A DNA stretch of 43,440 nt from Candidatus Nezhaarchaeales archaeon (GTDB taxonomy: Archaea; Thermoproteota; Methanomethylicia; Nezhaarchaeales; JAWCJE01), in the NCBI GenBank assembly GCA_038853715.1, contig JAWCJE010000017.1, positions 1 to 43,440 on the forward strand, read 5' to 3'. Below are positions 1 to 39,455 of this stretch, piece after piece. The notes below the pieces were generated by a model, which was given only the letters and a program-made list of their open reading frames with translations, ran no database searches and was not told where the DNA came from. Position 1 is the stretch's first letter. Every line of letters begins with the position of its first letter. The position numbers were made by a program, and so were the translations under genes.

Positions 1-903
1 GCGGTTCTCCAGCATTAGCCAGAAGTAAGCTGCAAGCGCCTCATCTAGGGTGCCCAGCTCGATAAGGTCGATAACGCTGAAGGGCTCCTCGCGGAATCTT
101 CTTATACAGAAGGTACTCCCCTTGGGTGAAACCTCACGCTTAAACGTGGCGGCAACTCTATCCTTAGTAGGCAACATAGCGTCCAGTATTGGAAAGGCCG
201 TGGAAATGTGCTTCTGAGCTACATGGGTCAGTTTAATAAGAACGTTATCCAGCGTAGCTTCATTCACTATTCTAAGGTTTGTAGGCATGCTCTCATAGCA
301 GCGGTGCCAAACGTAGACAGGTATACCTATGCCGTTCACGGAGATATCCTCGATTGTCCTGTCATTCATTATTACGTCCAGGGGCCCATAACCAATAAGG
401 TCCCGCTTAAGATAATAGGCGATCCGCTGCCAAGAATCCTCACTTAGGTTTTTAGCGATCCTGTACTTTTTAATTAGCCTTCGGGCCTCAGCCTCTACGT
501 AGGCTTTAGCGTCAACGTCATCGCTTTTAGGAGGTTCAACCTCAAGGCTTAAAATGTCAATAAGCCTGTTGAGGATGTATTGCTCCTTGGGTGAAAGCTC
601 AACCTCTTCAATAAAGTAGGCTTTATCGCCCCCGAGGCTGGGAAGAGATGCAATAGTGACCTTCGCGTAAGGCCAATTAACGGGATAAGAATCTATAACT
701 TGGGCTTCAGGGGGTAACCTCTCAAGAACGGCTGTAGGAGCAGGTGCAGGACCCTCCCTACGCTTAAAAACCCCCTTTAAACCGCTAAACGGGAAACAAA
801 ACAACCTCTTCCCGGCTTTCTCAAGCCTTTCAGACTGCTTAGATCTTTTAAGCCGCTCTGCTTCCCCCTCGGAAGAATTTTCCAGAGCGGACAAATAACC
901 CAC
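1..903 (-). CDS. Type II/IV secretion (type IV pilus) assembly ATPase, N-terminal part, cut by window edge
   Basis: The minus strand is open from about 918 to the left edge, and the gene continues beyond the window. The 301 visible residues match the N-terminal half of archaeal GspE/PilB/TadA-type ATPases, which power pilus or archaellum assembly at the cytoplasmic membrane. Recognisable stretches are LIGYGPLDVIMND, then IEDISVNGIGIPVYV, then FCIRRFREEPFSVIDLI, then a helix LDEALAAYFWLMLENR. The Walker A and B motifs would lie outside the window. I chose GTG at 903 because it is the first start after the in-frame TAA and sits about 30 bases downstream of a TATA-like T-rich element near 928-938, so it may be leaderless. 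The pilin gene lies upstream in the same direction, but this gene has its own promoter element. The family call is firm; the choice of system (pilus, archaellum or adhesion) is inferred from the neighbouring pilin. Confidence 0.85.
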   Translation of the reverse strand, partial: MGYLSALENSSEGEAERLKRSKQSERLEKAGKRLFCFPFSGLKGVFKRREGPAPAPTAVLERLPPEAQVIDSYPVNWPYAKVTIASLPSLGGDKAYFIEEVELSPKEQYILNRLIDILSLEVEPPKSDDVDAKAYVEAEARRLIKKYRIAKNLSEDSWQRIAYYLKRDLIGYGPLDVIMNDRTIEDISVNGIGIPVYVWHRCYESMPTNLRIVNEATLDNVLIKLTHVAQKHISTAFPILDAMLPTKDRVAATFKREVSPKGSTFCIRRFREEPFSVIDLIELGTLDEALAAYFWLMLENR

Positions 904-934
904 CCATAATAAGGTTAAACAGGAAGGTAAATAA

Positions 935-976
935 AAAGATTATGCTTTAATATGCATAAGATATGCATAAGTATGC
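935..976 (-). promoter_or_regulatory. Upstream element copy A: four phased TATGC boxes ahead of the pilus ATPase
   Basis: TATGC boxes begin at 941, 951, 962 and 972, so spacing is 10, 11 and 10 bases, or one helical turn each. Two boxes extend to the palindrome TATGCATA (951-958 and 962-969). The element abuts the TATA-like region of the ATPase promoter (about 928-938) on its upstream side. It matches the element at 1507-1548 at 38 of 42 positions without gaps. The four differences are all C/T or G/A transitions. I infer a cooperative operator or activator site overlapping the TFB-recognition region. No regulator is identifiable from the window. Confidence 0.7.
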
Positions 977-982
977 TTAAGA

Positions 983-1450
983 TTACGGTAACACTATGGT
1001 CTTGGGATACTGATAGCCTGCAGCGGTTTGCAACATTAATTCGATAGTAATACCGGAGGTCGCATTACACGTCAAGAGGTCCGCGTTTGGATTTATACCA
1101 ACTCTTATTGTTTCCGTTTTCCCAGGAACTACCGAACGTGATGTCGGCCAGTATACGTATACAGCCTTTGTCGAATTATAAGGTACTCCGTTAATTAAAA
1201 GATTGGTTAACGTAGCTGGGGAGGATCCCGTGTTTTTAATGGTTAATGTGACGTTCCAGCCTCCATCGGAGGGGTTGCTGATGGCGTAGGCTGCCTGAAA
1301 CTCTATTTTTTCGTATCTTGTGAAAGTCCCTGATAGCCCTAACATCCAGTAGGCTACGGCGATACTCATAACGATGGCTACCGAGACAATGATTATCGTG
1401 GAGATTACTGGACTAACCGCTTTATGGTTCCTTCTAAGTCGATTCAACAA
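983..1450 (-). CDS. Archaeal type IV pilin / archaellin-like protein
   Basis: This is a class III signal-peptide protein, the structural subunit partner of the ATPase downstream. A short basic leader (NRLRRNHKA) is followed by VSPVIST and a 20-residue hydrophobic helix. That is the conserved N-terminus of the archaellin/type IV pilin N-terminal domain family. Cleavage by a PibD/EppA-type prepilin peptidase is expected just before VSP. The rest is a beta-rich, exported domain of about 110 residues with a typical TIKNTGSSPATLTNLLING segment. I prefer TTG at 1450 (or the adjacent TTG at 1447), since GGGTGGG lies just upstream. An ATG at 1540 would add 30 residues and run through the promoter element. 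The gene ends inside the promoter region of the ATPase. Whether it makes a pilus or an adhesion filament cannot be told. Confidence 0.85.
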   Translation of the reverse strand: MLNRLRRNHKAVSPVISTIIIVSVAIVMSIAVAYWMLGLSGTFTRYEKIEFQAAYAISNPSDGGWNVTLTIKNTGSSPATLTNLLINGVPYNSTKAVYVYWPTSRSVVPGKTETIRVGINPNADLLTCNATSGITIELMLQTAAGYQYPKTIVLP

Positions 1451-1506
1451 AATCCCACCCCCATAAGTCATTTTTAACCATAGTAAAACTGGAGGGGCAG
1501 ATATAT

Positions 1507-1548
1507 AAAGATTATGTTTTAATATGTATAAAATATGCATAAATATGC
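1507..1548 (-). promoter_or_regulatory. Upstream element copy B: four phased TATGY boxes ahead of the pilin
   Basis: TATG[CT] boxes begin at 1513, 1523, 1534 and 1544, again spaced 10, 11 and 10 bases. The element directly precedes the pilin TATA box (CTTTATATAT on the minus strand, 1501-1510). The expected transcription start is near 1475, shortly before the TTG start at 1450. The order, orientation and distance to the TATA region are the same as in copy A at 935-976. Two promoters that share only this block are probably controlled by one factor. Confidence 0.7.
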
Positions 1549-1685
1549 AAGCGTGATGGAAAATACCTTTAAAGCTTAGGTTTTACAACTCACGTGCAAC
1601 GCTATAGTTATAATATCCATTTACCCCTTCCGGTAATCGTCCCTCTCGTGAACCGCGTACGAACCTTACGTAAGTGTCTACAGCA

Positions 1686-1895
1686 TTAAAACGCGCCACT
1701 AGCCTCTAGGTAGCTGAGCTTAGCTGTAAGTCTTCTAATGTAATCCTCAGCGTTCAGCATCCTTAAGGCATAACGTTATGTTGCCGCCCTAATCAACGGC
1801 TTAACGATACCGCCTTTCAGGCTTAACGTCTCGGCAAATTCCTTCACGGACACTAGACCCCTAAGGAAGCCCAGAATAGTGCGTCCAGTACCTTA
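1686..1895 (-). pseudogene. Degraded small ORF, family not recognised
   Basis: On the minus strand a reading frame gives ILGFLRGLVSVKEFAETL, then LSLKGGIVKPLIRAAT, an in-frame TAA, then RYALRMLNAEDYIRRL and TAKLSYLEASGAF before a stop at 1686. The pieces look like helical coding sequence with the codon preference of neighbouring genes. There is no usable start, one internal stop, and the upstream end breaks into other frames. I cannot name the family. It could be the tail of a degraded mobile-element or regulator gene, given the tRNA remnant about 95 bases away. The remaining bases from 1551 to 2111 show no intact gene. Confidence 0.35.
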
Positions 1896-1989
1896 CGCGT
1901 CTTCTTCTACAATCTTAGACTTCGTTCTTCACCTCGGCACCTGAAGGATGGAGCCGCGGGAATTTAAAGGAGGGAAAATAAGCGAGTAG

Positions 1990-2029
1990 CGGGCTCAGCG
2001 GGATTTGAACCTGTAACTGCCCGGTTTAC
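1990..2029 (-). pseudogene. tRNA 3'-half remnant (positions 34-73)
   Basis: The 40 bases on the minus strand fit tRNA positions 34 to 73 exactly: anticodon-like GTA, AA, stem CCGGG, variable loop CAGTT, T-arm ACAGG-TTCAAAT-CCCGC, acceptor TGAGCCC, then G. The matching 5' half is missing upstream: no GGGCTCA acceptor strand and no CCCGG anticodon stem. The T stem has two A-C mismatches, as expected after G-to-A decay of a once perfect GCGGG/CCCGC stem. A pseudo-tRNA or an integration scar is most likely. A trans-spliced 3' half is possible but less likely because of the mismatches. Confidence 0.4.
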
Positions 2030-2111
2030 GGTATTTAGTACATTATGAATAACCTTACTTAGCTTAACATAGTAGCATCTAAGGGGAATACTTTAAGATG
2101 AGGACGCGTAG

Positions 2112-3245
2112 TTACTGCTTCCTCCTCCATCCGTATCTCTCGGTGTCGTAGAATGGCCACTTAACCACTTCGGCTTTAAGTGTCCTTCCCCTTACGTTAA
2201 CCTCGAGCATACTTCCCTCCTCAGCGTAGCTAGGAAGGACGTAGCCCATGGCGATGCCCCGCTTTAAAAGCGGTGAGTAAGTACCACTAGTTACTACGCC
2301 GATCCTACACCCATCCTTTAAGATTTCACATCCATCCCTAGGAATACCTGGCTCAACCATTTTCAACCCTATACGTACCTTGGATAAGCCGCGCCTTCTC
2401 TGTTCTATTAGCGCTTCACGACCTATGAAGGAGGCCTTATCAAGCTTAACGGTGAAGTCCAACCTAGCCTCGTACGGAGTGGTATCCTCATTTAAATCGT
2501 GATCGTAGAGGCACATCCCGGCCTCTAAGCGAAGCGTATTACGCGCACCGAGCCCGCAGGGCTTCATCCCTTCATCCCTCCCGGCTTCAAGTAGCTTCCT
2601 CCAGAAGCTAATGGCGGGCTCCGGGCTCGATAGGGGGATTCCCCATAGCATTAACTCGAAGCCATCCTCACCCGTATAACCGCTTCTAGCTATTAACGCT
2701 TTAAGCCCTGCGATTTCAATCCAGCTTACGTGGTAGCGTTTAACTAGGCCTAGATCGAAGCTAGTTAGCTTTTGTAGTACTTCTTGCGCCTTAGGGCCTT
2801 GAACCGCTAGCATGGGGACCTCGTCTGAGACGTCTTCAACCTTAACGTTAAATCCTTTAGCCTGTTCAGCTAACCACCCGTAATCCTTAGCCCTATTACT
2901 AGCGTTATAAACGACTAAGTACTGATGGGGGCTTAACCTGTAAACCGTTAAATCATCCTTAATACCGCCCCTCTGGTTGCACATAACCGTGTAATGTCCC
3001 TGAAGCACGTTTAACTCGGACGGCGCCCTCGTAGTTACATGGTCGAGGAACTCCGCGGCCTCCGGACCCGTTACCAACGACCTACCCATATGGGTTACGT
3101 CGAAAACCCCTACGGCTTCGCGGACGGCCATATGCTCCATTACTATGCCTTCAAACCATAGGGGCATTTCGAACCCGGCGTACTCAACGAGGCGGCCGTA
3201 CTCCTTATGAAAGGGATATAAATGCGTCCTCCTCAAGCCCGACAC
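2112..3245 (-). CDS. gcvT: Aminomethyltransferase (glycine cleavage system T protein)
   Basis: The T protein takes the aminomethyl group from lipoylated H protein and makes methylenetetrahydrofolate (or the archaeal equivalent) plus ammonia. At 377 residues it has the usual family length. It shows the N-terminal RTHLYPFH region, GGIKDD at residues 93-98 containing the conserved catalytic aspartate, and SGYTGEDGFE near residue 190. The C-terminal barrel carries GIAMGYVLP. The start is GTG at 3245; a TTG three codons in is an alternative. The glycine cleavage P, H and L proteins are not in the window, so the gene is isolated. It is divergent from the alanine dehydrogenase-like gene about 100 bases away. 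The family is secure; a paralogous one-carbon role is possible. Confidence 0.9.
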   Translation of the reverse strand: MSGLRRTHLYPFHKEYGRLVEYAGFEMPLWFEGIVMEHMAVREAVGVFDVTHMGRSLVTGPEAAEFLDHVTTRAPSELNVLQGHYTVMCNQRGGIKDDLTVYRLSPHQYLVVYNASNRAKDYGWLAEQAKGFNVKVEDVSDEVPMLAVQGPKAQEVLQKLTSFDLGLVKRYHVSWIEIAGLKALIARSGYTGEDGFELMLWGIPLSSPEPAISFWRKLLEAGRDEGMKPCGLGARNTLRLEAGMCLYDHDLNEDTTPYEARLDFTVKLDKASFIGREALIEQRRRGLSKVRIGLKMVEPGIPRDGCEILKDGCRIGVVTSGTYSPLLKRGIAMGYVLPSYAEEGSMLEVNVRGRTLKAEVVKWPFYDTERYGWRRKQ

Positions 3246-3345: not shown

Positions 3346-4347
3346 ATGCGTGAAACCTTAATCCTAACTAGGAAGGACGTGGAAGCCCTACTCGACATGA
3401 AGGAAGCCATAGGGGCTGTGGAGCTAGCGTTTAAGGAGAAAGGCCTTGGAAGGGCTCAAATGCCAGCTAAAATATACTTATTCTACGAGAAGTATGGTGG
3501 CGATCTTAGAAGTATGCCATCTTACTTGGAAAACCTAGACGTTTCAGCAGTTAAAGTCGTAAACGTCCACCCTCAAAACCCGGAAAAGTATGGTTTACCA
3601 ACCGTTATGGCAGTATTAATACTCATAGAGCCAGCTACAGGTTTCCCGCTTACCATCATGGACGCTACGTACTTAACCGATATGCGGACCGGGGCGGCGG
3701 GCGCCGTAGCTGCTAAGTACCTAGCTAGAAGGGACGTTAAAACAGTAGCCTTAATAGGTTCAGGTAGACAAGCCCGAACCCAGCTACTAGGTCTAGTTAC
3801 GCTTTACGGAGGCTTAGAATCCGTTAAAGTCTATAGTATAAGTAAGGAGTCACGCGAAGCGTTCGTAGATGAGGCCATTAAGAAATACCCGAGCGTTAAG
3901 GAGATACGGGCCGTGGGAACAGCTGAGGAAGCGGTTAGAGGCGCTGACATAGTGGTAACTGCTACCCCTTCGAGGAGCCCTATCGTAATGAGCAACTGGA
4001 TTAAGGAAGGCGTACATATTAACGCGATAGGAGCCGACGCACCCGGTAAGGAGGAACTGGATCCGGCGATACTAAAGAGGGCGAAAATAGTCGTAGATGA
4101 TTGGGAGCAGGCATCCCATAGCGGTGAGATAAACGTACCCCTCTCGAAGGGCTTATTAACGAAGCAGGACGTATACGGCGAAATAGGGCAGGTTGTGGCG
4201 GGCTTAAAGCCCGGTAGAACCTCTAACGAGGAGATAACCGTCTTCTGTTCAACAGGTTTAGCCGTACAGGACGCGGTAACCGCTAAGCTAGTTTATGATA
4301 AGGCTAAAAGCAGAAACCTAGGGGTTTGGATGCAGTTAGTCCTTTAA
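3346..4347 (+). CDS. Ornithine cyclodeaminase / mu-crystallin family (archaeal alanine dehydrogenase type)
   Basis: This is an NAD(P)-dependent enzyme of 333 residues, the normal family size. The substrate half has VKVVNVHPQNP near residues 69-79 with a conserved lysine, and TDMRTGAAGA at 111-120. The Rossmann half begins VALIGSGRQAR (134-144). In archaea this family includes alanine dehydrogenase and ornithine cyclodeaminase, with other members acting on other amino or imino acids. Sequence alone does not fix the substrate. The start is ATG at 3346. A perfect hairpin follows the stop, then the BtpA-family gene in the same direction. Confidence 0.85.
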   Translation: MRETLILTRKDVEALLDMKEAIGAVELAFKEKGLGRAQMPAKIYLFYEKYGGDLRSMPSYLENLDVSAVKVVNVHPQNPEKYGLPTVMAVLILIEPATGFPLTIMDATYLTDMRTGAAGAVAAKYLARRDVKTVALIGSGRQARTQLLGLVTLYGGLESVKVYSISKESREAFVDEAIKKYPSVKEIRAVGTAEEAVRGADIVVTATPSRSPIVMSNWIKEGVHINAIGADAPGKEELDPAILKRAKIVVDDWEQASHSGEINVPLSKGLLTKQDVYGEIGQVVAGLKPGRTSNEEITVFCSTGLAVQDAVTAKLVYDKAKSRNLGVWMQLVL

Positions 4348-6948: not shown

Positions 6949-8121
6949 TTGGGCGGCCGACTGGTTGATAGGTTTAACGCTATAGCTTTCAAGGGCGTTT
7001 TGGCCTTAGGCTTCGTTAGTTTTTTCACCGATATCTCTAGTGAGATGTGCTTCAGCCTTCTACCCACCTTTATCATCAGTCTCCCTGGGGCTACTAAAGC
7101 CGTTCTAGGCGTTATTGAGGGGTTAGCGGAAACCCTTAACTACGTTTTAAGGCTGTTTTCAGGTGTTATCTCTGATAGGTTTAGGAGGAGGAAGCCGATT
7201 ATCCTAGCTGGTTATACAGCCTCCAACCTAGCGAAACCCTTCTTTTCAGCGGCTCAAACCTGGGTTGACGCGTTACTAATCCGCGTATTCGATAGGGTTG
7301 GGAAGGGGATGAGAACTCCGCCTCGAGACGCGCTTCTTAGCGAGCTAGCCTCCAAGAAGCGTATGGGTACAATGTTCGGCATCCATAGAACCCTTGACCA
7401 ACTGGGAGCTATTTTAGGGCCAATTCTAGCTTCACTTCTCATAACCCTCGGGCTAACCGCGCGTAGCGCTTTCCTCTTATCCTTAGTACCTGGGTCCATG
7501 GCGATCCTGATCCTATTATTCCTAGTCGAGGAGCGTACCAGTAGGCCTAGCGGAGGCGTAAAAGCGTTAAGAGGCATACGGATAGCTCTTAAGGGTGGCT
7601 TCCTTCAACTTCTACTCGTTGTAGGCGTTTTCTCCATGGGGGCCTTTAATTTCGCCTTCATACTTTTAAGGGCGAAGGAAGTAGGTGTACCTGAAGCCTT
7701 AATCCCAATGGTTTACGCCGTCATTAACGCTGTTTACGTCGCTACCGCGATACCGGCTGGCGCCCTCTTCGATAGGATAGGCGGTGAGAAAGCTTTAGCT
7801 TTAGGCTACGCCCTCTTTCTCCTTTCGTTACTTCTCCTACCACTTAAAGGTGTTCCTTATGCCTTCCTAGTAGCTAGCGTATATGGATCCTACCTAGGCG
7901 TAGTGGAAACCGTTCAAAGGGCTTTAATCCCAAGCTACGTTCAAAGCGATCTAAGTGCTACTGCCTACGGCCTCTACTACCTCATCGTTGGTTTAGCGTT
8001 CCTAGTTGCTAACGTAACTGTTGGAGCGCTTTGGGAGTACCTAGGCTTACTAGCCGTAGTCAGCTATAGCGTAGTAACATCCGCGGTCGCCATCGTAGGC
8101 GCGTTACTCCTCGTAAAATAG
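6949..8121 (+). CDS. MFS transporter, 12-helix
   Basis: This major facilitator superfamily permease of 390 residues is the normal size for 12 membrane helices. The loop between helices 2 and 3 carries the motif A variant GVISDRFRRRKPII, with a related GALFDRIGGEKAL in the second half. A DRVGKGMRTPPRDALLSE segment after helix 4 resembles that of putative efflux permeases of the YxaM type. Substrate cannot be predicted. The start is TTG 6949, with GAGGT a few bases upstream and an ATTTTATAG box near 6903-6911. It is convergent with a second MFS gene at 8276-9427, to which it is not closely similar. Confidence 0.85.
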   Translation: MGGRLVDRFNAIAFKGVLALGFVSFFTDISSEMCFSLLPTFIISLPGATKAVLGVIEGLAETLNYVLRLFSGVISDRFRRRKPIILAGYTASNLAKPFFSAAQTWVDALLIRVFDRVGKGMRTPPRDALLSELASKKRMGTMFGIHRTLDQLGAILGPILASLLITLGLTARSAFLLSLVPGSMAILILLFLVEERTSRPSGGVKALRGIRIALKGGFLQLLLVVGVFSMGAFNFAFILLRAKEVGVPEALIPMVYAVINAVYVATAIPAGALFDRIGGEKALALGYALFLLSLLLLPLKGVPYAFLVASVYGSYLGVVETVQRALIPSYVQSDLSATAYGLYYLIVGLAFLVANVTVGALWEYLGLLAVVSYSVVTSAVAIVGALLLVK

Positions 8122-38935: not shown

Positions 38936-39346
38936 TTACTTGGTTAAGGCCGTCGTTAAGAGTTTAACGTTTTTAACCCCTCTGATGCTCATTAAGTGAT
39001 CAGCTAACTTACGAATCTCAACGGCTGGCCCCTTACTAACTAAAACCTCTAAACAGTTATTTTCATCTAGGTGTACGTGTAGGCTTGACGTTATTAAGCC
39101 TTGAAACGCGTGCTCTACGTCGAGTAGCTGATCAGCCACCATTCCCTTCCCGTGATCGTACACTAACGATATAACCCCTAAAACGTTATCCCCGCCAGCT
39201 TCCCAAGCATGTTCAACTATGAAGCTACGTATAGCATCACAAATAGCCTGCGACCTCTTCCGGTAACCCTTTCTACGTGCGACCTCGTCAAACTCCTTAA
39301 GTAGTTCAACGGGGAACGATACGCCAGTCCTTACAACTCTCCCCAT
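38936..39346 (-). CDS. nikR: Nickel-responsive regulator NikR
   Basis: This ribbon-helix-helix DNA-binding repressor has an ACT-like metal domain. From ATG 39346 it has 136 residues. The N-terminal RVVRTGVSFPVELLKEFDEV forms the ribbon and helix. His79, His90, His92 and Cys98 fall at spacings 11, 2 and 6, exactly as H76, H87, H89 and C95 of E. coli NikR, so the nickel site is complete. It presumably controls nickel uptake, but no nickel transporter or nickel enzyme is in the window. GTG 39355 is an alternative start. Confidence 0.92.
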   Translation of the reverse strand: MGRVVRTGVSFPVELLKEFDEVARRKGYRKRSQAICDAIRSFIVEHAWEAGGDNVLGVISLVYDHGKGMVADQLLDVEHAFQGLITSSLHVHLDENNCLEVLVSKGPAVEIRKLADHLMSIRGVKNVKLLTTALTK

Positions 39347-39455
39347 ACAGCCCACAAGTATAGAGAAGCCGGGGGCCCTTATTACTATAGCCGTCCATGA
39401 AGGTGGCTTACGGAACCCTATAAGGCGTTAACGGTACGGGTAACACGTGGCAGAG

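Follow-up and report, generated by a model that had tools for sequence, protein, structure and literature searches.

The window, that is, the whole stretch of 43,440 nucleotides analysed here, begins with two minus-strand genes for components of a type IV pilus. The first to be read (983-1471) codes for an archaeal type IV pilin that matches Pilin_N (PF07790, E 3.8e-5) and is the sole match to this family in the genome; its ATG start lies at 1471, and an alternative start would be the TTG at 1450 or 1447, located after the Shine-Dalgarno-like sequence GGGGGTGGG. The second (1-903) codes for the pilus assembly ATPase and is truncated by the contig end, which leaves the 301 N-terminal amino acids; the remainder of the gene was searched for in the assembly and was not found. 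The product of 1-903 is 68-73% identical to orthologues from the same order, whose full-length versions match T2SSE (E 1.1e-36); in those genomes a T2SSF gene comes next. No archaellin (PF01917) was found in the genome, which is archaeal by its gene content, and Rfam gave no match within window positions 1-3000. Judging from its position, the minus-strand sequence TTTATATAT (1501-1509) would be the TATA box of the pilin gene, and TTTTTATTT, at 929-937 on the same strand, probably acts as the TATA-like region of the ATPase gene. The latter forms, together with positions 938-939, the minus-strand T-run TCTTTTTATTT, which could end pilin transcripts.

Each of these core promoters is preceded by a copy of a 42-base block, on the minus strand at 935-976 for the ATPase (GCATACTTATGCATATCTTATGCATATTAAAGCATAATCTTT in the transcription sense) and at 1507-1548 for the pilin (GCATATTTATGCATATTTTATACATATTAAAACATAATCTTT), the latter copy including the first three bases of the pilin TATA box. 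The copies align without gaps and share 38 of their 42 bases, and the differences, located in the transcription sense at positions 6 (C/T), 17 (C/T), 22 (G/A) and 32 (G/A), are all four transitions. This identity is far above chance: no other 42-base stretch on either strand of the window matches one of the blocks at more than 27/42, and random AT-matched pairs of 200-bp promoters reached at most 28/42, with a mean of 23.7 (2000 trials). Every block contains four TATG[CT] boxes, which start at 941, 951, 962 and 972 in one copy and at 1513, 1523, 1534 and 1544 in the other, the spacing being 10, 11 and 10 bp in both. Recalculation reproduced the blocks and boxes as the first-pass annotation had reported them, as well as their location immediately upstream of the TATA regions of the pilus ATPase and the pilin. 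The palindromes that it had described are also present in both blocks, with the correction that the ATPase copy carries two TATGCATA and the pilin copy one TATGCATA (1534-1541) plus TATGTATA.

Since both target genes lie on the minus strand, the functional reading is that of RCATA boxes followed by a TATA box. In this direction boxes 1 to 4 occupy 972-976, 962-966, 951-955 and 941-945 in the ATPase copy and 1544-1548, 1534-1538, 1523-1527 and 1513-1517 in the pilin copy. All of them fit WRCATA, and the third box of the pilin copy is exactly TACATA. In both promoters the four WRCATA boxes span from 3 to 44 bases upstream of the TATA region, and the distance from block to TATA is identical. The mean box spacing of about 10.3 bp aligns the sites along a single face of the helix, and box 4, only 3 bases from the TATA box, overlaps the BRE position.

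This geometry allows two ways of reading the boxes. In the transcription sense both blocks also contain the dyads GCATA-YT-TATGC and GCATA-TYT-TATRC, and there is a real, if minority, possibility that both promoters answer to a dimeric regulator from a different family (Lrp-type, MarR/ArsR-type or ribbon-helix-helix), with the block as its operator. Such a regulator would read the overlapping inverted repeats GCATA-N2/3-TATGC and repress by covering the BRE. The position of box 4 over the BRE could equally mean repression, and the sites of Lrp-type regulators in archaea are imperfect inverted repeats of 13-17 bp (PMC6396743). The blocks resemble the operators of that type (Ptr2, Ss-LrpB) in having multiple sites upstream of the BRE, and Ptr2 activates through TBP recruitment (PMC5512572), but the 13-17-bp palindromes exceed the 10-11-bp period found here. 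Moreover, box 4 has no inverted partner, and box 3 of the pilin copy has a G-to-A change that destroys the dyad but leaves the direct RCATA box intact. As both differences located inside boxes preserve RCATA and one of them disrupts the pilin-copy inverted repeat, a reading as direct boxes is favoured and, with the exact TACATA box, an activator of the EarA kind.

EarA activates the archaellum in Methanococcus and Pyrococcus and recognises TACATA; four copies of this motif adjoin the BRE of the Methanococcus fla promoter on its upstream side, and transcription is abolished when they are removed (PMC5512572, PMC6396743). The suggestion of the first-pass annotation that no archaeal operator of such a form had been described was therefore incorrect, its description of the element itself being right. 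In Thermococcales one to three copies of the EarA motif are found at a fixed distance from the BRE (PMC10665913). Like the four-site EarA operator of M. maripaludis, the blocks present several 6-bp TACATA-type sites immediately upstream of the BRE/TATA, and both serve type IV filament genes, the EarA operator acting on the archaellum operon; the match concerns the number, sequence and position of the sites, not their exact spacing. They differ in that most of the boxes are GCATA instead of TACATA, in that the element is present twice, and in that it precedes the genes of a type IV pilin and of the pilus ATPase rather than an archaellin gene. With these targets, and with no PF01917 member encoded, control of an archaellum (fla/arl) operon does not apply. 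The element is EarA-like by its working principle and is not an archaellum operator by membership; it belongs to a known kind, and what is new is its target and its lineage. The ArnR/ArnR1 system likewise has cis-elements ahead of a type IV filament gene's core promoter: two of them, 15-bp inverted repeats TCGAC-N5-GTCGA, precede flaB of Sulfolobus acidocaldarius, and ArnR binds pilus promoters as well (PMC6396743). The blocks differ from these boxes in sequence and symmetry, and the sequence TCGAC-N5-GTCGA is absent from both.

As for the regulator, none was found. Winged-helix genes placed beside an archaellin gene in another record (L180) were tried as proxies for EarA and gave only a weak match (E 0.005) to an ArsR-like gene in the genome. 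They were discarded, because the archaellin promoter in that record is devoid of a TACATA array, which makes its winged-helix neighbours poor proxies. A Methanosarcinaceae archaellin promoter (L179, about 7930-8000) contains TATACATCTTATACATTAAAG, with two TACAT sites 10 bp apart that form an EarA-like pair. A NikR-type nickel regulator is encoded at 38936-39355 of the window, on the minus strand (NikR_C, E 8.3e-29), and no link between it and the blocks was found.

The specificity of the pattern was examined throughout the assembly (1.55 Mb, 30 contigs, 95% complete), a scan that had been proposed with the first description of the blocks. Exact matches to the four-box pattern were two, namely both blocks at the pilin and ATPase promoters, and the exact three-box pattern likewise matched both blocks only, with no match for the control pattern. 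The next distinct places for the four-box pattern appeared at 2-3 mismatches, a tolerance at which the reversed control also gave two matches. A genome-wide regulon was rejected, given that the exact three- and four-box matches are confined to the two blocks. These results support the view that both promoters share an operator-like element whose boxes are helically phased and which was found nowhere else in the assembly; further copies might lie in the sequence that the assembly lacks.

It had been anticipated that relatives keeping the promoters without the block would speak against an operator, and this was found in part: the block is absent from the orthologous pilin-ATPase loci of three genomes of the same order, which keep the order pilin then ATPase, with a gap of about 20 to 97 bases between both genes. 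Among 398 genomes of the phylum, scanned with up to 2 mismatches, exact matches occurred in this genome only, the weaker ones being inside genes or at non-pilus sites, and in 295 genomes of another archaeal phylum (that of a Methanosarcina record, L053) matches stayed at chance level. No such box array was present at pilus promoters in the sampled genomes of both phyla (398 + 295). The absence of the array from these promoters, that of the block from the same-order loci and that of archaellin from the genome all count against the EarA-like reading; the promoter context of two functionally linked genes, pilin and pilus ATPase, counts in its favour. With a looser pattern applied to all genome contigs, the matches listed were mostly unrelated bacterial loci, and the TGCATA or AACATA arrays that a scan of IMG/VR found, on 8 contigs, were unrelated. 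In five of the IMG/VR contigs (L216, L217, L218, L220 and L221) one and the same gene, of unknown function and 176 amino acids (134 as read in L221), is preceded at a distance of 85 bases by an identical tandem array of TGCATA. A four-box ACATA array is common to two Heimdallarchaeota genomes (L083, about 4028-4062; L097, about 3390-3424), where it is flanked by a small gene and an aconitase/LeuC-like gene. In the same-order relatives the pilin is immediately preceded by a gene with a TackOD1 domain (PF18551, E 1e-15 to 1e-17 in L014 and L016; L014 3115-3783, L016 3083-3763 and L015 1-684); this position is empty in the window.

The two blocks lie in the same orientation on either side of the pilin gene, as direct repeats. 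The differences between them affect spacers (2 of 16 bases) and boxes (2 of 20) to about the same extent, which points to recent copying rather than to long selection on the boxes alone, and, as spacers are conserved as much as boxes, conservation by itself does not single out the latter. This distribution suggests that one promoter was recently copied, and since the pilin-ATPase gap of the relatives has no block, an ATPase promoter with the operator seems to have been added locally. A more extreme view would deny the array a dedicated regulator and ascribe the similarity of the blocks to recent duplication, either of a 42-bp promoter segment or as direct repeats on both sides of a pilin cassette. 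The shared orientation, the even spread of the differences and the absence of both copies in the same-order relatives agree with it, but the similarity ends at functional edges, box 1 on one side and the TATA region on the other, and the four phased boxes within one copy are themselves unique in the genome; we regard this explanation as improbable. Further upstream, window positions 1989-2026 (minus strand) hold 38 bases that share 84% identity with the 3' end of the genome's tRNA-Trp gene (L225, 1444-1540), with no tRNA gene called there, and the stretch 1560-2100 is free of ORFs and apparently decayed. Both may be the relic of an attachment site of an integrated element.

The two copies, their geometry, their position and their uniqueness in the genome are direct observations. 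On how they work, we give roughly even chances to the block being a promoter-proximal operator, present in two copies, for the EarA-like activation of pilin and pilus ATPase together. A sequence-specific protein would occupy three to four WRCATA sites along one face of the DNA, spaced by one helical turn, and would directly abut the BRE/TATA. The blocks sit where TFB- or TBP-recruiting activators of archaea are typically bound, just ahead of the BRE/TATA (PMC5512572), and activation here would most likely proceed by aiding the binding of TFB or TBP, as EarA does at archaellum promoters, so that pilin and ATPase would be switched on together. The differing TATA boxes may place pilin output above that of the ATPase, the pilin box presumably being the better one and setting the pilin:ATPase ratio. 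As to origin, the pilin promoter element was probably duplicated to give the ATPase copy.

To our knowledge, little is known on how pili are switched on in archaea outside a few model species. That a lineage outside the archaellum-bearing Euryarchaeota co-regulates its type IV pilus via an EarA-like phased TACATA/GCATA operator, duplicated at adjacent promoters, is a tentative proposal that we hold to be rather doubtful. The element is short, well defined and confined to one pilus locus, and hence a ready bait for its regulator; it would test whether EarA-like control reaches the type IV pili of other archaeal lineages. If true, the proposal would carry this operator logic over to archaeal type IV filaments at large.
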